64,000 nucleotides of DNA from Bradymonas sediminis. Its GTDB lineage: Bacteria > Myxococcota_A > Bradymonadia > Bradymonadales > Bradymonadaceae. The stretch lies in the NCBI RefSeq assembly GCF_003258315.1, contig NZ_CP030032.1:3015804-3079803 (forward strand), read 5' to 3'. A program made the translations under genes and the position numbers. The notes beneath the pieces are model-generated. The model was not told the origin of the DNA, did not search any database, and saw only the letters and a list, made by a program, of their open reading frames with translations. Below are positions 3,229-23,924 of this stretch, in pieces (within the stretch, counting starts at the first letter, position 1; every line of letters starts with the position of its first letter).

Positions 3229-4988
3229 AAATCAACAAGATCGCACACCTATATATGCGCGTTATTTCCTTCCTATTATTCTTGGCGATCGCCACCGCCG
3301 GTTGCGATTCGAAGTCCGACCCGGCCGCGACCAGCGCCTCTGCCCTGGCCACCCGCCCCGCCACCGCGGACCCGCAGGATTGGTGCGCCGAGCACGCGCT
3401 CCCCGAGTCGATGTGCACCAAATGCCATCCCGAACTCGTCGACGGCTATAAAGAAGCCGGCGACTGGTGCGACGAGCACGGGTTCCCCGAATCCGTCTGC
3501 CCTCAATGCCATCCGATGCAAGCACCGCAGACCGGCGCCACAGCCCACAGCGCCGACAACGGCGAGTGGTGCGCCGGACACGGCCTCCCCGAATCCCATT
3601 GCACCAAATGCCACCCCGAGCTCATCCCCAAATTCAAGGAAGCCGGCGATTGGTGTGACGAGCACGGATTCCCCGAGTCCGCCTGCCCCGTCTGCAACCC
3701 GATGACCCCGCCGGGCGCCAAGACCGCCACAGCCCACAGCTCCGATAACGGCGAGTGGTGCGCCGGGCACGGCCTCCCCGAATCCCATTGCACCAAATGC
3801 CACCCCGAGCTCATCCCCAAATTCAAGGAAGCCGGCGATTGGTGCGACGAGCACGGATTCCCTGAGTCCGCCTGCCCCGTCTGCAACCCGATGACCCCGC
3901 CCGGCGGCGTCGCGCCCATCGAGGGCGTTGAGCCCGGGACGAAGATCATCTTCCGCCAGGATGACCACGAGAAGGCGGTCGGCATCGAAGTTGTCGCCGC
4001 GCGCCAGGCCAGCGTCGGTATGGGCATCACAGCCCCGGCGCGCATCGAGTTCAACCAGAATCACCTGGCCGACGTGCGCGCCCCGGTGCCAGGCATCGTG
4101 CACGATGTGCGCGTCGATTTCGGCGAGACGATCGAAAAAGGTGCGCCCCTCTTCGTGCTTGAGAGCGCGCAAGTAGGCGGAACACAAGCGAAAATTCAGG
4201 CCGCGAATCAAGAGATCGCGACCGCCCGCGCCAACCTGGAGCGCCAGGAAAAACTGCGCGAAACCGGCCTCGCCGCCGAGCGCCAGGTCGAACTCGCCCG
4301 CCGCGATCTGCAGGCCGCCCAGTCGAACCTCGGCTCGCTCAATAACGCCCTTCGCCTGGCCGGCGCCTCCGGCGCGGCCCGAAGTGGCCGATATACCCTG
4401 CGCGCGCCGATCTCCGGCACCATCATCGCCCGCCCGGGCGTGGTCGGCGCCTTCGCCACCGAGGAGACCTCGCTGGCGACCGTCGCCGACACCTCAAGCA
4501 TGTGGGCGATGATCGACGTCGCCGAGCGCGACGGCTTCGCCCTTAAGACCGGTCAATCCGTCACGGTGACCATCCCCGGGGCAACCGACGCAAAATTCCC
4601 CGGAAAGATCACCTGGATCTCGCCGGCGGTGAACCCCAGAACCCGCACCATCACGGTGCGCGCCGAGGTCAAAAACCCCGACGCCAGCCTGCGCGCCAAT
4701 CAATTCGCGACCGCCGAAATCGGCATCGCCCCGGACGCATCCGGCGTGGTCGTGCCGCGCAGCGCCGTGCAGCGCCTGGGCGGCGGCACGGTCGTCTTCG
4801 TGCGCCTTAGCCAGGGGCAATACGAGCCGCGCGTGGTCGAAGTTGACCGCAGCGACGGCGACCTCGTTCAGGTCCGTGGCACCGTTACGCCAGGCGAACC
4901 CGTGGTCACCACAGGCGCGTATATTCTAAAAACCGAACTCAGCCGAGACAGCATCGGCGCGGGTTGCTGCGAAGTCCCGGGGGAATAA
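3225..4988 (+). CDS. RND efflux periplasmic adaptor (CzcB-like) with six N-terminal Cys/His repeats
   Basis: 587 residues. The N-terminus has a lipoprotein-type signal ending at Cys27 (IATAGC). Residues 52-228 carry six copies of a motif of the form W-C-x2-H-x(3)-E-S-x-C-x2-C-[HN]-P, arranged as three pairs. After residue 240 comes a normal membrane-fusion protein: a lipoyl-like segment (DVRAPVPGIVHDVRVDFGE), a coiled-coil hairpin (EIATARANLERQEKLRE), the second lipoyl half (YTLRAPISGTIIA) and a beta-barrel domain. Typical CzcB/CusB adaptors are about 350-500 residues, so the repeat region is an addition. The repeats probably bind metal and pass it to the pump; this is inference. The gene is coupled to the upstream outer-membrane gene and ends 3 bp before the pump gene. 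Confidence 0.9.
   Translation: MKINKIAHLYMRVISFLLFLAIATAGCDSKSDPAATSASALATRPATADPQDWCAEHALPESMCTKCHPELVDGYKEAGDWCDEHGFPESVCPQCHPMQAPQTGATAHSADNGEWCAGHGLPESHCTKCHPELIPKFKEAGDWCDEHGFPESACPVCNPMTPPGAKTATAHSSDNGEWCAGHGLPESHCTKCHPELIPKFKEAGDWCDEHGFPESACPVCNPMTPPGGVAPIEGVEPGTKIIFRQDDHEKAVGIEVVAARQASVGMGITAPARIEFNQNHLADVRAPVPGIVHDVRVDFGETIEKGAPLFVLESAQVGGTQAKIQAANQEIATARANLERQEKLRETGLAAERQVELARRDLQAAQSNLGSLNNALRLAGASGAARSGRYTLRAPISGTIIARPGVVGAFATEETSLATVADTSSMWAMIDVAERDGFALKTGQSVTVTIPGATDAKFPGKITWISPAVNPRTRTITVRAEVKNPDASLRANQFATAEIGIAPDASGVVVPRSAVQRLGGGTVVFVRLSQGQYEPRVVEVDRSDGDLVQVRGTVTPGEPVVTTGAYILKTELSRDSIGAGCCEVPGE
3541..3918 (+). repeat. 189-bp in-frame tandem duplication inside the adaptor gene
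   Basis: The DNA from 3541 to 3729 is repeated almost identically from 3730 to 3918 (period 189 bp, 63 codons), differing at only a handful of mostly silent positions. Each unit encodes one pair of the Cys/His motifs. A more diverged relative lies just upstream (about 3378-3540). Confidence 0.9.
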
Positions 4989-16895: not shown

Positions 16896-18286
16896 TCTCC
16901 AAGCGATCCGCCATGTCCAAAGTATCTCTGCGCCCCAACACCCTCGCGAAGGTCGCGATAGTCCTGCCAATTCTTTGCGCATTCTTGTTGCCAAGCGTCG
17001 CTCAGGCCCAGGACGCGCCGGCCAAGGCGCAGCCGGCCGACGCGGCAACGGCGGCCCCAGCGGCTGAGGACGCCGCCGCAGAGCAAGCAGCGCCCAAAGC
17101 GGTCGACTCATTTTCGGTCAGCGTCCAGCTCAACGCCGCGACCAACGTCGCCGACCAGGCGGTGATTCTGCTCGCCGCGCGTCCCAAAGGCCCGCACGAG
17201 CCCAAGGACCCGACGCCGCAGCATCAATGGACCGCGACCACCAACGCCCAGGGCCTGGCGACCTTTGCGAATATCCCGTTGACGGTCGCGACCTCCGGTC
17301 TTCGGCTGCACGCGACCACCTTCCAGAACGGTCATCTCTACAAGAGCCCCGCGGTCACCCCGGCCCCGGGAATCAAGCTCAATATCGGCATCTATGAGCA
17401 GGGGCATACGCTCGATGGCGTGGTGATCAAAGATGTTCAGACCATCGCCCATGTCTGGGAGAACCATATCTTCTTCCAGCAATTCTATCTGGTGAGCACC
17501 GAGGGCGATAAGCTCATCGACACCGCCCAACTCGCCGGCGCACGCTTCGAGAACGGCATGCCCATCCGCCTGCCGATCAAGGCGACCGGCATCCAGGTCG
17601 AATCACCGGGCGAGACCCGCGTGGTCAACTCCATCGTCAATTGGAAGGGTGTTCTGAAACCCGGTGAGAACGTCCCGGTCAGCGTGGCGTTTTCGATCCC
17701 GGCCGACCACACGACCTTCACCTACGAGCAGGAATTCGATTACCCGGTGCGCAGCGCGAAGATCTTGCTGCCGCTTGAGCCGACCAGCCCGCAGGTAAAA
17801 ATCGCCTATTTCGACACCGTCTCCCTGGCCGCCCCCGGCTTCAAGGTCGACGCCGTCGAAGGCGGCCTCAACGGACAGAACCAGGGCAAATTCCTGGTCG
17901 CCGACAATGGCACCTTCGAGAAAGACGGCGTCATGGCATTCCAGCTCACCGGCCTGCCCTTCGACGAGCCCACCGGCGCCTGGTTGGCCCTTATCCTGGG
18001 CGTCGCGGGTATCATCGTTGCCCTGATTTACTCCCGCCAGGAGCAGCGCCATATCGACAAAACGCGCACCTCCGCCGGCGTGGCTGAGATGTTGCGCGGC
18101 GAGCAAAAAGAGCTGCTCGATGAGCTCGCAGCCCTCGAGCAAGACTACGAAGACGGCGAAGTCGGCGACCTCGAATACGAGCGCGAATCGCTACTTTTGC
18201 GCGGACGCATCGCCCTGGTGATGCGCAAAATCGCCGAGATCGAAGAGGCGATGGCATCCCCCGAAGCCCCTAACGTCGCCGCATGA
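16892..18286 (+). CDS. membrane protein of the ccm operon with large periplasmic domain and CcmI-like cytoplasmic tail
   Basis: 464 residues. Signal peptide or first helix ends at VAQAQ near residue 36, followed by an Ala/Pro-rich linker. Residues 70-360 look like beta-sandwich periplasmic domains (VSVQLNAATNVADQAVILLA, TFANIPLTVATSGLRLHAT). A membrane helix follows (WLALILGVAGIIVALIYS) and then a cytoplasmic coiled tail (KELLDELAALEQDYEDGEVG, YERESLLLRGRIALVMRKI) resembling the helical hairpin of the upstream zinc-ribbon protein. Coupled by ATGA overlaps to the genes before and after. I do not recognise a named family; a scaffold role in cytochrome c maturation is inferred from context. Confidence 0.7.
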   Translation: MISKRSAMSKVSLRPNTLAKVAIVLPILCAFLLPSVAQAQDAPAKAQPADAATAAPAAEDAAAEQAAPKAVDSFSVSVQLNAATNVADQAVILLAARPKGPHEPKDPTPQHQWTATTNAQGLATFANIPLTVATSGLRLHATTFQNGHLYKSPAVTPAPGIKLNIGIYEQGHTLDGVVIKDVQTIAHVWENHIFFQQFYLVSTEGDKLIDTAQLAGARFENGMPIRLPIKATGIQVESPGETRVVNSIVNWKGVLKPGENVPVSVAFSIPADHTTFTYEQEFDYPVRSAKILLPLEPTSPQVKIAYFDTVSLAAPGFKVDAVEGGLNGQNQGKFLVADNGTFEKDGVMAFQLTGLPFDEPTGAWLALILGVAGIIVALIYSRQEQRHIDKTRTSAGVAEMLRGEQKELLDELAALEQDYEDGEVGDLEYERESLLLRGRIALVMRKIAEIEEAMASPEAPNVAA

Positions 18287-18975
18287 GCGAGATCCGCCTC
18301 GAATCAGTCTCCCGCATCTACGGGCGCTCATTCGCGCTGCACCGGGTCTCGCTGCGCCTTCGCCCCGGTGCCCTGACCGCGGTCGTGGGCGATAACGGCG
18401 CGGGAAAATCAAGCCTGCTCAATATCCTCGCCACCCTCGATAAACCCTCCGACGGCGAGGTCTACTTCGGCGAGCATACCTGGGCGACCTACGCCAAAAA
18501 GGGTCGCCATAAGATCGGCTGGGTCAGCCACGATTCCCTCATCTACGCCGAACTCACAGGCCGCGAGAACCTCGAGTTTTTCGCGTCCATGTACGGCCTC
18601 GATAACCCCGGCGAACTGAGCAAAACATGGCTTGAGCGCGTCGGCCTGACCGACGCCGCCGACCGCCTCTCCAGCACCTACTCACGCGGCATGAAGCAAC
18701 GCCTCACCCTGGCCCGCGCCCTGCTCCACAAGCCCAGCATCCTGCTGCTCGACGAGCCCATGACCGGCCTCGACCAGGCCGGCCGCACCCAGATGACCGC
18801 CCTCTTCCGCCAATTATGCGCCGAAGGCTGCCTGCTCGTGCTGGTCACCCACAACCTCAGCATGCTCCAGGACCTCGCCGACCACCTCGTCGTCCTGCGC
18901 CGCGGCAAGCTCGTCCACGACGCCCCGCTTGGCCCCGAGGATGACATCCTCGACATCTACCGCCAACACGCCTGA
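18283..18975 (+). CDS. ccmA: ABC transporter ATPase, CcmA-like heme exporter subunit
   Basis: 230 residues, a single ABC ATPase domain. Walker A GDNGAGKSS near residue 37, Q-loop region IGWVSHDSLIYAELTGRENL, signature YSRGMKQRLTLARAL, and Walker B ILLLDEPMTGLD with the switch histidine in LVTHNL. In System I, CcmA with CcmB releases heme-loaded CcmE from CcmC. The position at the end of a ccmE-ccmF gene run supports that role over a general ABC ATPase. Oddly, ccmB and ccmC do not follow; the coding run stops here and a tandem repeat array begins 21 bp later. Confidence 0.85.
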   Translation: MSEIRLESVSRIYGRSFALHRVSLRLRPGALTAVVGDNGAGKSSLLNILATLDKPSDGEVYFGEHTWATYAKKGRHKIGWVSHDSLIYAELTGRENLEFFASMYGLDNPGELSKTWLERVGLTDAADRLSSTYSRGMKQRLTLARALLHKPSILLLDEPMTGLDQAGRTQMTALFRQLCAEGCLLVLVTHNLSMLQDLADHLVVLRRGKLVHDAPLGPEDDILDIYRQHA

Positions 18976-18996
18976 GCGAGGCCCTACGCACTCGCC

Positions 18997-20945
18997 TCGA
19001 CACTCCTTGCCTGCTCGCTTTCGCCGCTTCGCGGCGACAAGAGCAGGATGCTCTTGCTCCCGGGGGGGGTACGCTTAAAACACTTCGCACGTGGCTGCTT
19101 GCTCGCTTTCGCCGCGGCGCCCCACCATCCGGTGGCAGGTCATCTTGACCTGCCTGAGTACACGCAAAAATATCGACACTGCTCGCTTTCGCCGCTTCGC
19201 GCCGACAAGAGCAGGATGCTCTTGCTCCCGGGGGGGTACGCTTAAAGCAGCACTTTGCACGTGGCTGCTTGCTCGCTTTCGCCGCGGCGCCCCACCATCC
19301 GGTGGCAGGTCATCTTGACCTGCCTGAGTATACGCAAAAATATCGACACTCCTTGCCTGCTCGCTTTCGCCGCTTCGCGCCGACAAGAGCAGGATGCTCT
19401 TGCTCCCGGGGGGGTACGCTTAAAACACTTCGCACGTGGCTGCTTGCTCGCTTTCGCCGCGGCGCCCCACCATCCGGTGGCAGGTCATCTTGACCTGCCT
19501 GAGTATACGCAAAAATATCGACACTCCTTGCCTGCTCGCTTTCGCCGCTTCGCGCCGACAAGAGCAGGATGCTCTTGCTCCCGGGGGGGTACGCTTAAAG
19601 CAGCACTTTGCACGTGGCTGCTTGCTCGCTTTCGCCGCGGCGCCCCACCATCCGGTGGCAGGTCATCTTGACCTGCCTGAGTATACGCAAAAATATCGAC
19701 ACTCCTTGCCTGCTCGCTTTCGCCGCTTCGCGCCGACAAGAGCAGGATGCTCTTGCTCCCGGGGGGGTACGCTTAAAACACTTCGCACGTGGCTGCTTGC
19801 TCGCTTTCGCCGCGGCGCCCCACCATCCGGTGGCAGGTCATCTTGACCTGCCTGAGTATACGCAAAAATATCGACACTCCTTGCCTGCTCGCTTTCGCCG
19901 CTTCGCGCCGACAAGAGCAGGATGCTCTTGCTCCCGGGGGGGTACGCTTAAAGCAGCACTTTGCACGTGGCTGCTTGCTCGCTTTCGCCGCGGCGCCCCA
20001 CCATCCGGTGGCAGGTCATCTTGACCTGCCTGAGTACACGCAAAAATATCGACACTCCTTGCCTGCTCGCTTTCGCCGCTTCGCGCCGACAAGAGCAGGA
20101 TGCTCTTGCTCCGGGTGGTGCGCTTAAAACACTTCGCACGTGGCTGCTTGCTCGCTTTCGCCGCGGCGCCCCACCATCCGGTGGCAGGTCATCTTGACCT
20201 GCCTGAGTATACGCAAAAATATCGACACTCCTTGCCTGCTCGCTTTCGCCGCTTCGCGCCGACAAGAGCAGGATGCTCTTGCTCCCGGGGGGGTACGCTT
20301 AAAGCAGCACTTTGCACGTGGCTGCTTGCTCGCTTTCGCCGCGGCGCCCCACCATCCGGTGGCAGGTCATCTTGACCTGCCTGAGTATACGCAAAAATAT
20401 CGACACTCCTTGCCTGCTCGCTTTCGCCGCTTCGCGCCGACAAGAGCAGGATGCTCTTGCTCCCGGGGGGGTACGCTTAAAGCAGCACTTTGCACGTGGC
20501 TGCTTGCTCGCTTTCGCCGCGGCGCCCCACCATCCGGTGGCAGGTCATCTTGACCTGCCTGAGTACACGCAAAAATATCGACACTCCTTGCCTGCTCGCT
20601 TTCGCCGCTTCGCGCCGACAAGAGCAGGATGCTCTTGCTCCGGGTGGTGCGCTTAAAACACTTCGCACGTGGCTGCTTGCTCGCTTTCGCCGCGGCGCCC
20701 CACCATCCGGTGGCAGGTCATCTTGACCTGCCTGAGTACACGCAAAAATATCGACGCTCCTTGCCTGCTCGCTTTCGCCGCGGCGCGCCGACAAGAGCAG
20801 GATGCTCTTGCTCCGGGTGGTGCGCTTAAAACACTTTGCACGTGGCTGCTTGCTCGCTTTCGCCGCGGCGCGCCGACAAGAGCAGGATGCTCTTGCTCCG
20901 GGTGGTGCGCTTAAAGCACTTCTCACGTGGCTGCTTGCTCCGGGT
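18997..20945. repeat. tandem array of about 11 units of ~175 bp with a two-unit higher-order pattern
   Basis: Units begin with TCGACACTCC at 18997, 19173, 19343, 19518, 19696, 19871, 20049, 20222, 20400, 20578 and 20751, giving steps of 176, 170, 175, 178, 175, 178, 173, 178, 178 and 173 bp. A truncated unit follows from about 20864. Two unit types alternate: one reads AAAACACTTCGCACG, the other AAAGCAGCACTTTGCACG. Every unit holds a 9-bp-stem hairpin (GGCAGGTCA, 3-nt loop), an 8-bp-stem hairpin (CAAGAGCA, 3-nt loop) and a small CACC/GGTG hairpin, plus two copies of GCTCGCTTTCGCCGC. The array fills the gap between the convergent ends of ccmA and the dehydrogenase gene at 20970, so it may stop transcription from both sides. 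Open frames inside it merely reflect the repetition. Confidence 0.95.
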
Positions 20946-20969
20946 GAGTGTGCGCGTCGACCTGCGTGA

Positions 20970-23924
20970 TTAGCGACGCAGCGCCCGCGCCAACATCACC
21001 GCCGCATGCTCCGACTCCTTCGAAACTCCGTCGCGTATCTGATGGCGACACGACGTTCCCGTCGCGCAGATCGCCGCGTCCTCATCCGCCTCTCGCAGTA
21101 GCGGGAAAAGCGTCAACTCACCGATCTGCATCGACAGATCGTAGTGATTGGCCTCGTAGCCGAAGGAGCCGGCCATGCCGCAGCAACCTGTCTTAAGCGT
21201 CTCGATCTCATAGCCCGCGATCTTCAGGGCCGCCTCGGTCGGCGCCGTACCCACGAGCGCCTTCTGGTGACAATGGCCGTGCAAGAGCACCGGCTTAAGC
21301 GGCGCCGACGTCCAGATATCCTTGAACTCTCCGACCTCGTTTTGCTCGGCCACAAACTCCTCAAACAGCCGGGCGCGCTCGCCGCACTCGACCGCCACGG
21401 GACGCCACTCGGGGGCGCACAGGTCGATGGATTCGTCGCGAAAGGTCAGGATCGAGCTGGGCTCCAGGCCGACGATCTTTCGCTCCGGGTATTTCTCAAA
21501 GAGCGGCTTGAACGTGCGCAAATTTCGCTCAGTAAGCTCGCGCGCGGCGCGCACCAGACCCTTCGATAGTAGCGTACGCCCGTCGTCGTGCACCGGGAGT
21601 TGCTCGACTCGGTAGCCACCCGCCTCCAGCACCCGCACCGCCGCCATGCCGATCTCAGGCTCATTATACTCGCTAAACGGGTCCACATAGAGCCAGACGA
21701 CCTTGTCTCCGGTCGCGGACGACGCCTTCTGGTGCGCCTTAAACATCTGCGAAAAGGTCTTATGCGCAAATTGCGGGAGGTCGCGCTCGGGCGAAATATT
21801 GAAGAGCTTAAGCAGCAGCCAGCGAACGATGGCGAGCTTGACGATGAAGTTGGCGAGGCGCGGCGTCCAGGAGGCAGGGATCGCGGCCTGGCGATAATGC
21901 CCGAAGAAGCGCGAGGACAGCGGCACGCCGTTATGATCGTAATAATGCTGAGTGAACTCGGCCTTGAGCCGCGCCATATCGACATTTGCCGGGCACTCCG
22001 ATTTGCAGGCCTTGCACGACAGACACAGGTCGAGCGCCTCGTGCAACTCCTCGCTCTTAAAAGCGTCGGCCGGGTTCGGGCTATAGAGCGCCTGACGGAA
22101 CACATTGGAGCGCCCGCGCGTGCTATCCTTCTCGTTGAGCGTGGCCATATAGCTCGGGCACATCGTGCCGCCGGCCTCGGCGCGCTTTCGGCACACGCCG
22201 GCGCCGTTGCACTTCTCGACCGCGCGCACCAGCCCCCCATCGGCGCTCCAATCATAATAGGCGTCCACCTCGGGCGTCGGTTCTCCGGGGACGACGCGCC
22301 AATCCTGAAGCATCGGCGCGGGGTCGACGATCTTCTTGGGGTTCAAGATATTCTGCGGGTCGAACGCGTCTTTGACCTCGGCGTGTAGCGCCATGATCTC
22401 GGGCCCGTAAAAACGCTCGAGCAAAGGCGCGCGCAGCCGCCCGTCGCCGTGCTCGCCGCTGATCGCGCCGCCGTATTTCTTCACCAGATCCGCGACGTCC
22501 TCGGCGATTTCCTTAAACTTCTGGGCGTCCCCGGCATCCTTGAGATTAAGCTGCGGGCGAAGATGCAATTCGCCGACCGAGGCGTGCGCATAATAGACGC
22601 ATTCATTGCCGTGGCGGTCCATAATCGCGCGAAACTCATCGATATAGTCGGGTAGCACGTCGAGGGCGACCGCGGTGTCTTCAACGACAGTCACGGGCTT
22701 TGTGTCCCCCGGCGTCCCCATCAGCAGGCCGAGCCCGGCCTTTCGAAGCGCCCACACGCTCTTGTCCTTGGGCGCCCGCACGATCGGGTAGGAATAGCCA
22801 AACCCCCGCTGCTTAAACGCCTCGATAAGCTCGCCAGCCTTTCGCTCCAACTCGGCGTCCTCATCTGCGTAAAACTCCACCACCAGGATCGCCTCGGGGT
22901 CCCCTTCGACGAAGAAACGATGCCGCTGCTGCTCAAGGTTATGCTTGGTCAGCTCAAGGATCGGCCGGTCCATCAACTCGACGGCCGCCGGGCGATGCGC
23001 GACCGCGAGGATCGTCGCCTCCAGCGAGGCGCGGATGGTCTCGAAGTGCACGCAAACCAGGATGTTCTTCTTGGGTTTTGGCACCAAATTGAGCTTCACC
23101 TCGGTGGTGATCGCCAGGGTCCCCTCGGTCCCGCAGAGGAACTCCGCCAGCGAAAACGCCCGGGACTCGCCGCCCATAAGGGGCTGATTTCCATAGGGTT
23201 TACTGGCCTCGATCACGTCCAGGGGATAACCAGTATTTCGGCGCCGCACCTCGGGGCGCGGATATCTCTCGCGGATAAGCGCGGCGTTCTCGCGCACCGC
23301 AGTGTCCAGGGCGCGAAGCCCCGCCCCCATGCGCCCCTGGTCTGTGAGCTTCTCGGCCAATTCGGCCTCGGACCAGGGCGTGATCGACTCGAAATTTCCG
23401 TCCGAGAAGACCACGCCCATCTCCAAAAGATGCGCGCGGGTCTGGCCGAAATAGATGGAGTGGGAGCCGCAGGAATTATTGCCGACCATCCCGCCGATCA
23501 TGCAGCGGTTCGAGGTCGAGGTGTCCGGGCCGAAGAACAGCTCGTGGGGTGCCAGAAAACGGTTAAGGTCGTCCAGGATCACCCCGGGCTGCACCCGCAC
23601 CCAACGCTCTTCGACGTTAAGCTCGATGATCTGGTTCATATAGCGCCCCAGGTCCACGACCAGCCCCGGCCCGACGCATTGCCCGGCCAAGGAGGTCCCC
23701 GCGCCGCGCGGGATCAGGCTGATCTTCATGCGCTCCGCGAAGCGAACCAACGCCTGCACGTCGCTCGTCGTGCGCGGATAGGCCACCCCAAGCGGCTCCT
23801 CCTGGTAGACCGATGCGTCCTGGGAAAACAGCATCCGATGCATGCGATCGAGGTGCACCTCGCCGTCCATATTTTGAACTAAGGCGTCGATTTCAGCGGG
23901 ATTTACTTCGGCTATGGATGACAT
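20970..23924 (-). CDS. FAD-binding and Fe-S 2-hydroxyacid dehydrogenase (YdiJ-like)
   Basis: 984 residues, near the roughly 1020 of E. coli YdiJ-type D-2-hydroxyacid (D-2-hydroxyglutarate/D-lactate class) dehydrogenases. N-terminal PCMH FAD-binding domain with RTTSDVQALVRFAER and PRGAGTSLAGQCVGPG. An FAD-oxidase C domain follows (HASVGELHLRPQLNLKD, GAISGEHGDGRLR). Next come ferredoxin-like cysteine clusters (CNGAGVCRKRAEAGGTMCP; CLSCKACKSECPANVD). Last are CCG-type heterodisulfide-reductase motifs (HGHCHQKAL, LKTGCCGMAGSFGYE, CATGTSCRHQ). It probably passes electrons from the oxidised hydroxyacid into the respiratory chain. Its 3' end abuts the repeat array; it has no obvious operon partner. 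Confidence 0.9.
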   Translation of the reverse strand: MSSIAEVNPAEIDALVQNMDGEVHLDRMHRMLFSQDASVYQEEPLGVAYPRTTSDVQALVRFAERMKISLIPRGAGTSLAGQCVGPGLVVDLGRYMNQIIELNVEERWVRVQPGVILDDLNRFLAPHELFFGPDTSTSNRCMIGGMVGNNSCGSHSIYFGQTRAHLLEMGVVFSDGNFESITPWSEAELAEKLTDQGRMGAGLRALDTAVRENAALIRERYPRPEVRRRNTGYPLDVIEASKPYGNQPLMGGESRAFSLAEFLCGTEGTLAITTEVKLNLVPKPKKNILVCVHFETIRASLEATILAVAHRPAAVELMDRPILELTKHNLEQQRHRFFVEGDPEAILVVEFYADEDAELERKAGELIEAFKQRGFGYSYPIVRAPKDKSVWALRKAGLGLLMGTPGDTKPVTVVEDTAVALDVLPDYIDEFRAIMDRHGNECVYYAHASVGELHLRPQLNLKDAGDAQKFKEIAEDVADLVKKYGGAISGEHGDGRLRAPLLERFYGPEIMALHAEVKDAFDPQNILNPKKIVDPAPMLQDWRVVPGEPTPEVDAYYDWSADGGLVRAVEKCNGAGVCRKRAEAGGTMCPSYMATLNEKDSTRGRSNVFRQALYSPNPADAFKSEELHEALDLCLSCKACKSECPANVDMARLKAEFTQHYYDHNGVPLSSRFFGHYRQAAIPASWTPRLANFIVKLAIVRWLLLKLFNISPERDLPQFAHKTFSQMFKAHQKASSATGDKVVWLYVDPFSEYNEPEIGMAAVRVLEAGGYRVEQLPVHDDGRTLLSKGLVRAARELTERNLRTFKPLFEKYPERKIVGLEPSSILTFRDESIDLCAPEWRPVAVECGERARLFEEFVAEQNEVGEFKDIWTSAPLKPVLLHGHCHQKALVGTAPTEAALKIAGYEIETLKTGCCGMAGSFGYEANHYDLSMQIGELTLFPLLREADEDAAICATGTSCRHQIRDGVSKESEHAAVMLARALRR

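Follow-up and report, generated by a model that had tools for sequence, protein, structure and literature searches.

What fills almost the whole gap between two convergent genes of Bradymonas sediminis with about 1.95 kb of near-identical, hairpin-bearing units, and by what route could it have arisen? The array lies within the window, i.e., the whole 64,000-nt stretch of DNA analyzed here, and was compared with the rest of the home genome and with other genomes.

Structure and setting of the array

The tandem array at 18997-20945 of the window is real. TRF called positions 18997-20871 with periods of 178 bp (95% matches, 10.7 copies) and 353 bp (97% matches, 5.3 copies), followed by an irregular tail to about 20945-20946. 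The features of the locus are as follows (window positions).

18283-18975, plus strand: left neighbor, ABC ATPase of a cytochrome c maturation operon, CcmA-like (PF00005, 7e-31)
20970-23924, minus strand: right neighbor, FAD-linked oxidase with a 4Fe-4S domain (PF02913, PF01565, PF13183)
18976-20969, no strand: convergent intergenic gap between these two ORFs, almost wholly array
18997-20750, no strand: ten full REP-A/REP-B units (TRF and unit-by-unit reading)
20751-20945, no strand: array tail, two REP-A-only half-units repeating at about 85 bp and followed by a fragment (REP-A model matches at 20790-20816 and 20875-20901)
19036-19062, minus strand: REP-A, copy 1 of 12, 27 nt (covariance model, E 2.7e-6 to 5.2e-8; perfect 8-bp stems)
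starts at 19204, 19382, 19557, 19735, 19910, 20088, 20261, 20439, 20617, 20790, and 20875, minus strand: REP-A, copies 2-12, 27 nt each (covariance model)
19129-19155, plus strand: REP-B, copy 1 of 10, 27 nt (covariance model, E 5.4e-7; perfect 9-bp stems)
starts at 19299, 19474, 19652, 19827, 20005, 20178, 20356, 20534, and 20707, plus strand: REP-B, copies 2-10, 27 nt each (covariance model)
19020-19037, no strand: accessory hairpin TTCGCCGC-TTC-GCGGCGA adjoining REP-A (pattern match at G000:C1:3034823-3034840)

The array is made of 22 REP-type hairpins: REP-A (CGGAGCAAGAGCATCCTGCTCTTG) occurs 12 times, on the minus strand, and REP-B (CCGGTGGCAGGTCATCTTGACCTGCC) 10 times, on the plus strand. 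They are short palindromes within the 20 to 40 bp typical of REPs, have loops of 3 nt, and fold as single strands (ssDNA folding z of -4.9 to -6.0). The perfect stems of 8 to 9 bp described in the earlier note were recovered, the 8-bp stem (CAAGAGCA/TGCTCTTG) in 12 copies and the 9-bp stem (GGCAGGTCA/TGACCTGCC) in 10. A covariance model made from 15 variants, hand-picked from the home genome, a genome of a sister genus (G010), and MAGs, and giving only rough E-values, matched the array 22 times (E of 1e-6 to 1e-8) and gave no convincing match in the rest of the 64 kb. Each unit joins two different REPs, REP-A on the minus and REP-B on the plus strand, with spacers, and this inverted pair recurs ten times in a row, which is the arrangement of a BIME. 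The inverted REPs do not form the single long hairpin of a REPIN: their stems (AAGAGC versus CAGGTC) are unable to pair together, and the unit is therefore not a classical REPIN hairpin. The accessory hairpin, which adjoins REP-A also at 312, 631, and 2002 kb of the genome, has mismatches in every unit but the first. Since only this outermost unit keeps it intact, it is unlikely to be what maintains the array.

The units start at 18997, 19173, 19343, 19518, 19696, 19871, 20049, 20222, 20400, 20578, and 20751, with steps of 176, 170, 175, 178, 175, 178, 173, 178, 178, and 173 bp. The array had been described as eleven full units plus a truncated one; only ten are full two-hairpin units, and the eleventh start, at 20751, opens a tail of two half-units in which hairpin A is present and hairpin B absent. 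The reported alternation of two unit variants, with a short and a long spacer, holds in units 1-8 and then breaks (long, short). Duplication of dimers fits the pairs starting at 19343 and 19696 (units 3-4 and 5-6), which are one change apart, but not the whole array: units 6-7 and 9-10 are also one change apart, and the duplicated block was therefore not always of two units. This pattern of variants supports a growth that would have proceeded by duplication of multiunit blocks, with dimers and a shift of about three units.

The left neighbor raises a question of its own. In most relatives examined, ccmB directly follows ccmA, while in the home genome it is distant, at 211.8 kb (G000:C1:211839-212525, L231). 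The operon is thus split in the home lineage, and the array sits beside ccmA where ccmB would be expected. The region upstream of ccmB (212 kb) showed no REP, which leaves any part of the array in causing the split conjectural. In G010, the 130-bp spacer between ccmA and ccmB (L210) holds a different palindromic repeat-like sequence (AACCGCAAAGG...CCTTTGCGGTT). Elsewhere in the window, positions 3381-3906 carry a 189-bp tandem repeat (63 codons), which may encode a protein domain, rich in neither name nor match but with Cys and His residues, in several copies.

The hairpin family across the genome

Whole-unit relatives were absent from 38 other genomes of the class, and partial matches to the unit elsewhere in the home genome amounted to one piece of 47 bp and one of 48 bp. 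The hairpins themselves are widespread. A pattern leaving the stem free (GGAGCNNNNNCATCNTGNNNNNG) had 66 matches in the home genome and none for the reversed control; nearly all stems of the distinct matches are complementary, unlike those of the chance matches in most other genomes. A genome-wide search with the covariance model (E ≤ 0.01) gave at least 134 copies, and such counts may be lower bounds. The family thus has dispersed intergenic copies, as expected of REPs, most of them in arrays and about ten at single or paired sites among the matches listed. Single copies elsewhere had been proposed as a check on the REP-like reading, and both single and paired hairpins are indeed present. Besides the array of the window, at least six further loci carry such REPs, with the following arrays (copies x period).

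312 kb: 5 x 65 bp, REP-A array
861 kb (L052 6310-7885): 13 x 124, inverted pairs
948 kb (L236 4615-4992): 4 x 87, inverted pairs
2325 kb (L053 6414-7686): 13 x 99, three-unit higher-order period of 295 bp, inverted pairs
2524 kb: 8 x 44 bp, on one side of a RAYT gene
2525 kb: 8 x 108 bp, two-unit period, inverted pairs, on the other side of the RAYT gene and in front of hemH
3291 kb: 4 x 54
4091 kb (L233 5239-5865): 6-7 x 85, inverted pairs, between co-directional genes

In the 861-kb array, CCGGAGCCAGACCATCTTGGTCTGG is followed by its inverted partner, and the inverted stems match each other.

The alignment of the 15 variants revealed that stems change in a compensatory manner: 98.1% of the cells are paired versus 77.6% after shuffling (score of 0.58 versus 0.17), and sliding the stem partner abolishes the signal. 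The head of the hairpin is CCGG[A/T]G or a near variant (TCGG, TTGG). It is not the GT(A/G)G head that, at the 5' foot of the hairpin, defines published RAYT-linked REPs (PMC2817692). The CCGG[A/T]G head was not found in the REP literature compared, which was covered in part and describes one RAYT subclass with atypical hairpins.

A linked RAYT and its relatives

Nine Y1-transposase genes are present in the home genome. One of them, at 2,524,653-2,525,255, is flanked on both sides by tandem arrays of the CCGG[A/T]G family; its neighbors, as named by reading the ORFs, are probably hemB and hemH. Its product matches Pfam Y1_Tnp (PF01797) above the cut-off and is closer to the REP-associated tyrosine transposases of NCBIfam NF047646 (E of 9.5e-19) than to IS200 (9e-4), with an NCBIfam score of 67.7 bits that is below the cut-off of 80. 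The HUH motif and the catalytic tyrosine are kept, the invariant residues being H122, H124, W161, Q162, R171, and Y182, and the W-Q...R set has the same spacing as the residues named for guide-sequence contact in Escherichia coli TnpA_REP. The gene thus has the features of a RAYT/TnpA_REP distinct from IS200 TnpA. A profile of five such RAYTs retrieved only TnpA_REP from the PDB (4er8, E of 1.7e-6).

No RAYT was found with the precise REP-A and REP-B variants of this array at its flanks, none lies close to the array, and none of the four other RAYT/Y1 loci scanned in the home genome has REPs of this family beside it. We also considered an IS200-type transposase near the 312-kb REP-A array as a mobilizer and rejected it: it has its own 195-bp repeats and is about 1.2 kb away, with another gene between. 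An IS200-type gene lies between two near-identical blocks of about two 195-bp direct repeats (L046 7322-7678, 8384-8743). A Y1-transposase ORF of 351 aa is ringed by another family of tandem hairpins (CCGGCGGGGCAAGCCCGCCGG), with periods of 67 and 134 bp and in both orientations (L048 7714-8104; L043, 711 kb), and is a second REPtron-like locus. Other RAYT genes of the home genome have unrelated hairpin repeats nearby (GCGGGCGGGGACGCCCGCGCTCC; GTCGGGGTGCCACCCAC; L049 7044-7296; L051 6785-6944, 9979-10050).

The sister-genus genome, G010, encodes two homologous RAYTs (54% and 50% identity). Tandem hairpins built in the same way, with TTGGAG and CGGTG as heads, flank both of them. Of the 21 family genomes, only the home genome (at least 134) and G010 (at least 167) gave model matches at E ≤ 0.01, and no other carries RAYTs of this subgroup (≥50% identity). 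The co-occurrence of REPs and RAYT corresponds to a coincidence of about 1 in 20 and not more, because the search began in the home genome and both genomes contributed to the model; there is one informative positive besides the home genome. Farther away, a closely similar hairpin (CCGGAGCGAGGGCATCYTGCCCTCG) occurs in public genomes (Gemmatimonadota, gamma- and alphaproteobacterial MAGs). In a Pseudomonadales MAG, a RAYT 34 to 43% identical to the query RAYTs has a 4 x 59-bp array on one side and, on the other, inverted copies of a sequence closely related to that hairpin (CCGGACCGAGGGCGTCCCGCCCTCG). REPs thus flank the RAYT at 2524 kb, the RAYTs of G010, and that of the Pseudomonadales MAG. 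The REP clusters of this MAG (L108 1550-1732, 4881-5942) have a CCGGA head and alternative loops (GCATCTTGC and GCGTCCCGC), with the stem kept in both.

Origin of the array and alternative explanations

These results make it very probable that the array arose by tandem amplification of a hybrid BIME from the CCGG[A/T]G REP family, the partner of which is the RAYT at 2,524,653-2,525,255. The earlier suggestion of an amplified REP/BIME-like element is borne out by the inverted pairing of the REPs, their dispersed copies, the RAYT linked to them, and the covarying stems; the REP anatomy, inverted pairing, covariation, linkage to a RAYT, and co-occurrence are all observed. What counts against it is the CCGG[A/T]G head, the absence of a RAYT near the array, the putative status of any RAYT cognate to REP-A, the NCBIfam score under the cut-off, the single informative positive in the co-occurrence, and stems that do not pair as in a REPIN.

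RAYTs use single-stranded REP hairpins bearing a head sequence as substrates, and BIMEs consist of inverted REPs arranged head to tail (PMC2817692, PMC8266576). From this published biochemistry, the linkage, and the co-occurrence, we infer that a RAYT acting on single-stranded REP hairpins would have set a REP pair into the convergent gap. The pair would then have multiplied in place, in blocks of one to three units, probably by unequal recombination or replication slippage. The array may persist since a gap between gene ends tolerates it, and its effect on the neighbors, if any, would be that of an RNA 3'-end or DNA-structure element rather than of an intrinsic terminator.

The anatomy itself is known, as are arrays of such paired hairpins, which a domesticated transposase spreads. 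The alternating REPs and head-to-tail modules resemble the BIME-2 and modular BIMEs and the REPtrons (Nunvar 2010, PMC2817692; E. coli TnpA_REP, PDB 4er8), and the REPtrons of Nunvar 2010 (PMC2817692) also include two-type hybrid BIMEs, a RAYT with BIMEs on both sides, and complementary stem changes. Our system differs from them in its head (CCGG[A/T]G where those have GT(A/G)G), in its arrays of 10 to 13 units, and in a home genome outside the gammaproteobacteria, where those RAYT-REP pairs were found. Tandem clusters of REP pairs, some beside RAYTs, are known in Pseudomonas fluorescens (PMC3116915), and the ordered REPIN clusters of strain SBW25 (Bertels and Rainey 2011, PMC3116915) share the tandem REP pairs with flanks, the proximity of some to RAYTs, and mixes of two groups. 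In contrast to those REPINs, the REPs of the window unit have unlike stems and form no single REPIN hairpin, and the array spans about 1.95 kb whereas the largest ordered REPIN cluster reported in that study has four REPINs and >700 bp. The GTAG- and CGTC-tagged REPs of Di Nocera 2013 (PMC3733652) are likewise palindromes of 20 to 40 bp with an unpaired end tag, intergenic and often between convergent or co-directional genes, but the tag here, CCGG[A/T]G, is neither of theirs. TnpA_REP subclass 2.6 (PMC6006769), likened by description only, comprises RAYTs flanked by atypical hairpins with copies elsewhere in the genome. Relative to the literature compared, the large arrays are new, and so is the CCGG[A/T]G head, which takes the place of GT[A/G]G or CGTC.

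The array might also be selected as a bidirectional 3'-end element for its convergent genes (a Rho-dependent terminator, an RNA 3'-end stabilizer, or a gyrase/supercoiling site), with a functional copy number. Such a role would come on top of the REP origin and not as an alternative to it. Four large arrays (312, 861, 2325, and 3035 kb, the last being that of the window) occupy convergent gaps, some of them 20 to 100 bp from stop codons, and in other genomes most REPs are found between genes that converge or run in the same direction (PMC3733652). Yet the arrays at 4091 kb (co-directional genes) and 2525 kb (before hemH) and a single copy at 631 kb (divergent genes) are outside such gaps; the two arrays rule out that all are in convergent gaps. 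Moreover, near-identical units reflect recent duplication and are no proof of selection. The bidirectional terminator put forward earlier finds no support in its intrinsic form: the array has no site with a GC-rich stem and a T run, against a mean of 2.8 in shuffles. Altogether, we regard selection for a 3'-end function as unlikely.

A locus of structured small RNA or attenuation, in which the hairpins act as RNA, is quite improbable. The dimer folds as RNA better than 100 of 100 shuffles (z of -3.46) and compensatory changes preserve the stems, but recognition of single-stranded DNA by a RAYT predicts the covariation equally. Furthermore, the array has no sigma-70 promoter-like site and no Rfam match up to E = 1, which also dismisses a known RNA family, and both strands carry copies, in several gene contexts. 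A simple satellite, grown by recombination from a chance hairpin without any transposase, would fit the block duplications and the rarity, outside arrays, of REP-A with its accessory hairpin. It is made very improbable by the dispersed single and inverted copies with different yet compensating stems, by RAYT-flanking arrays in three lineages, and by the absence of the REPs from family genomes lacking the RAYT subgroup.

An assembly artefact with a wrong copy number is extremely unlikely: repeats over 2 kb are a classic cause of collapse or expansion, but the genome is a complete single contig, distinct unit variants follow a defined order with an irregular tail and an edge unit, and further loci have similar arrays. 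A protein-coding repeat was rejected, as the earlier note had argued, because the ORFs found on both strands have no Pfam match and the unit lengths shift the frame. A CRISPR array was discarded since whole units, spacers included, are 95 to 97% alike instead of having unique spacers.

Returning to the amplified BIME, the family might belong to a separate RAYT/REP lineage, spread over the home family, Gemmatimonadota, and Proteobacteria, with a CCGG[A/T]G head and with BIMEs that have grown, in the home genome, into large arrays acting as 3'-end elements between convergent genes; we advance this only as a tentative possibility. If true, the CCGG[A/T]G head would imply that guide-sequence recognition by the RAYT has changed. 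Most of what is known of REPs and RAYTs comes from enterobacteria and pseudomonads, where the head is GT(A/G)G. A lineage in which another head goes with large arrays, and in which several groups have a RAYT linked to the REPs, would provide a natural test of how guides are read and how BIMEs grow. The units, being marked by variants, make changes in copy number and block duplications measurable between strains.
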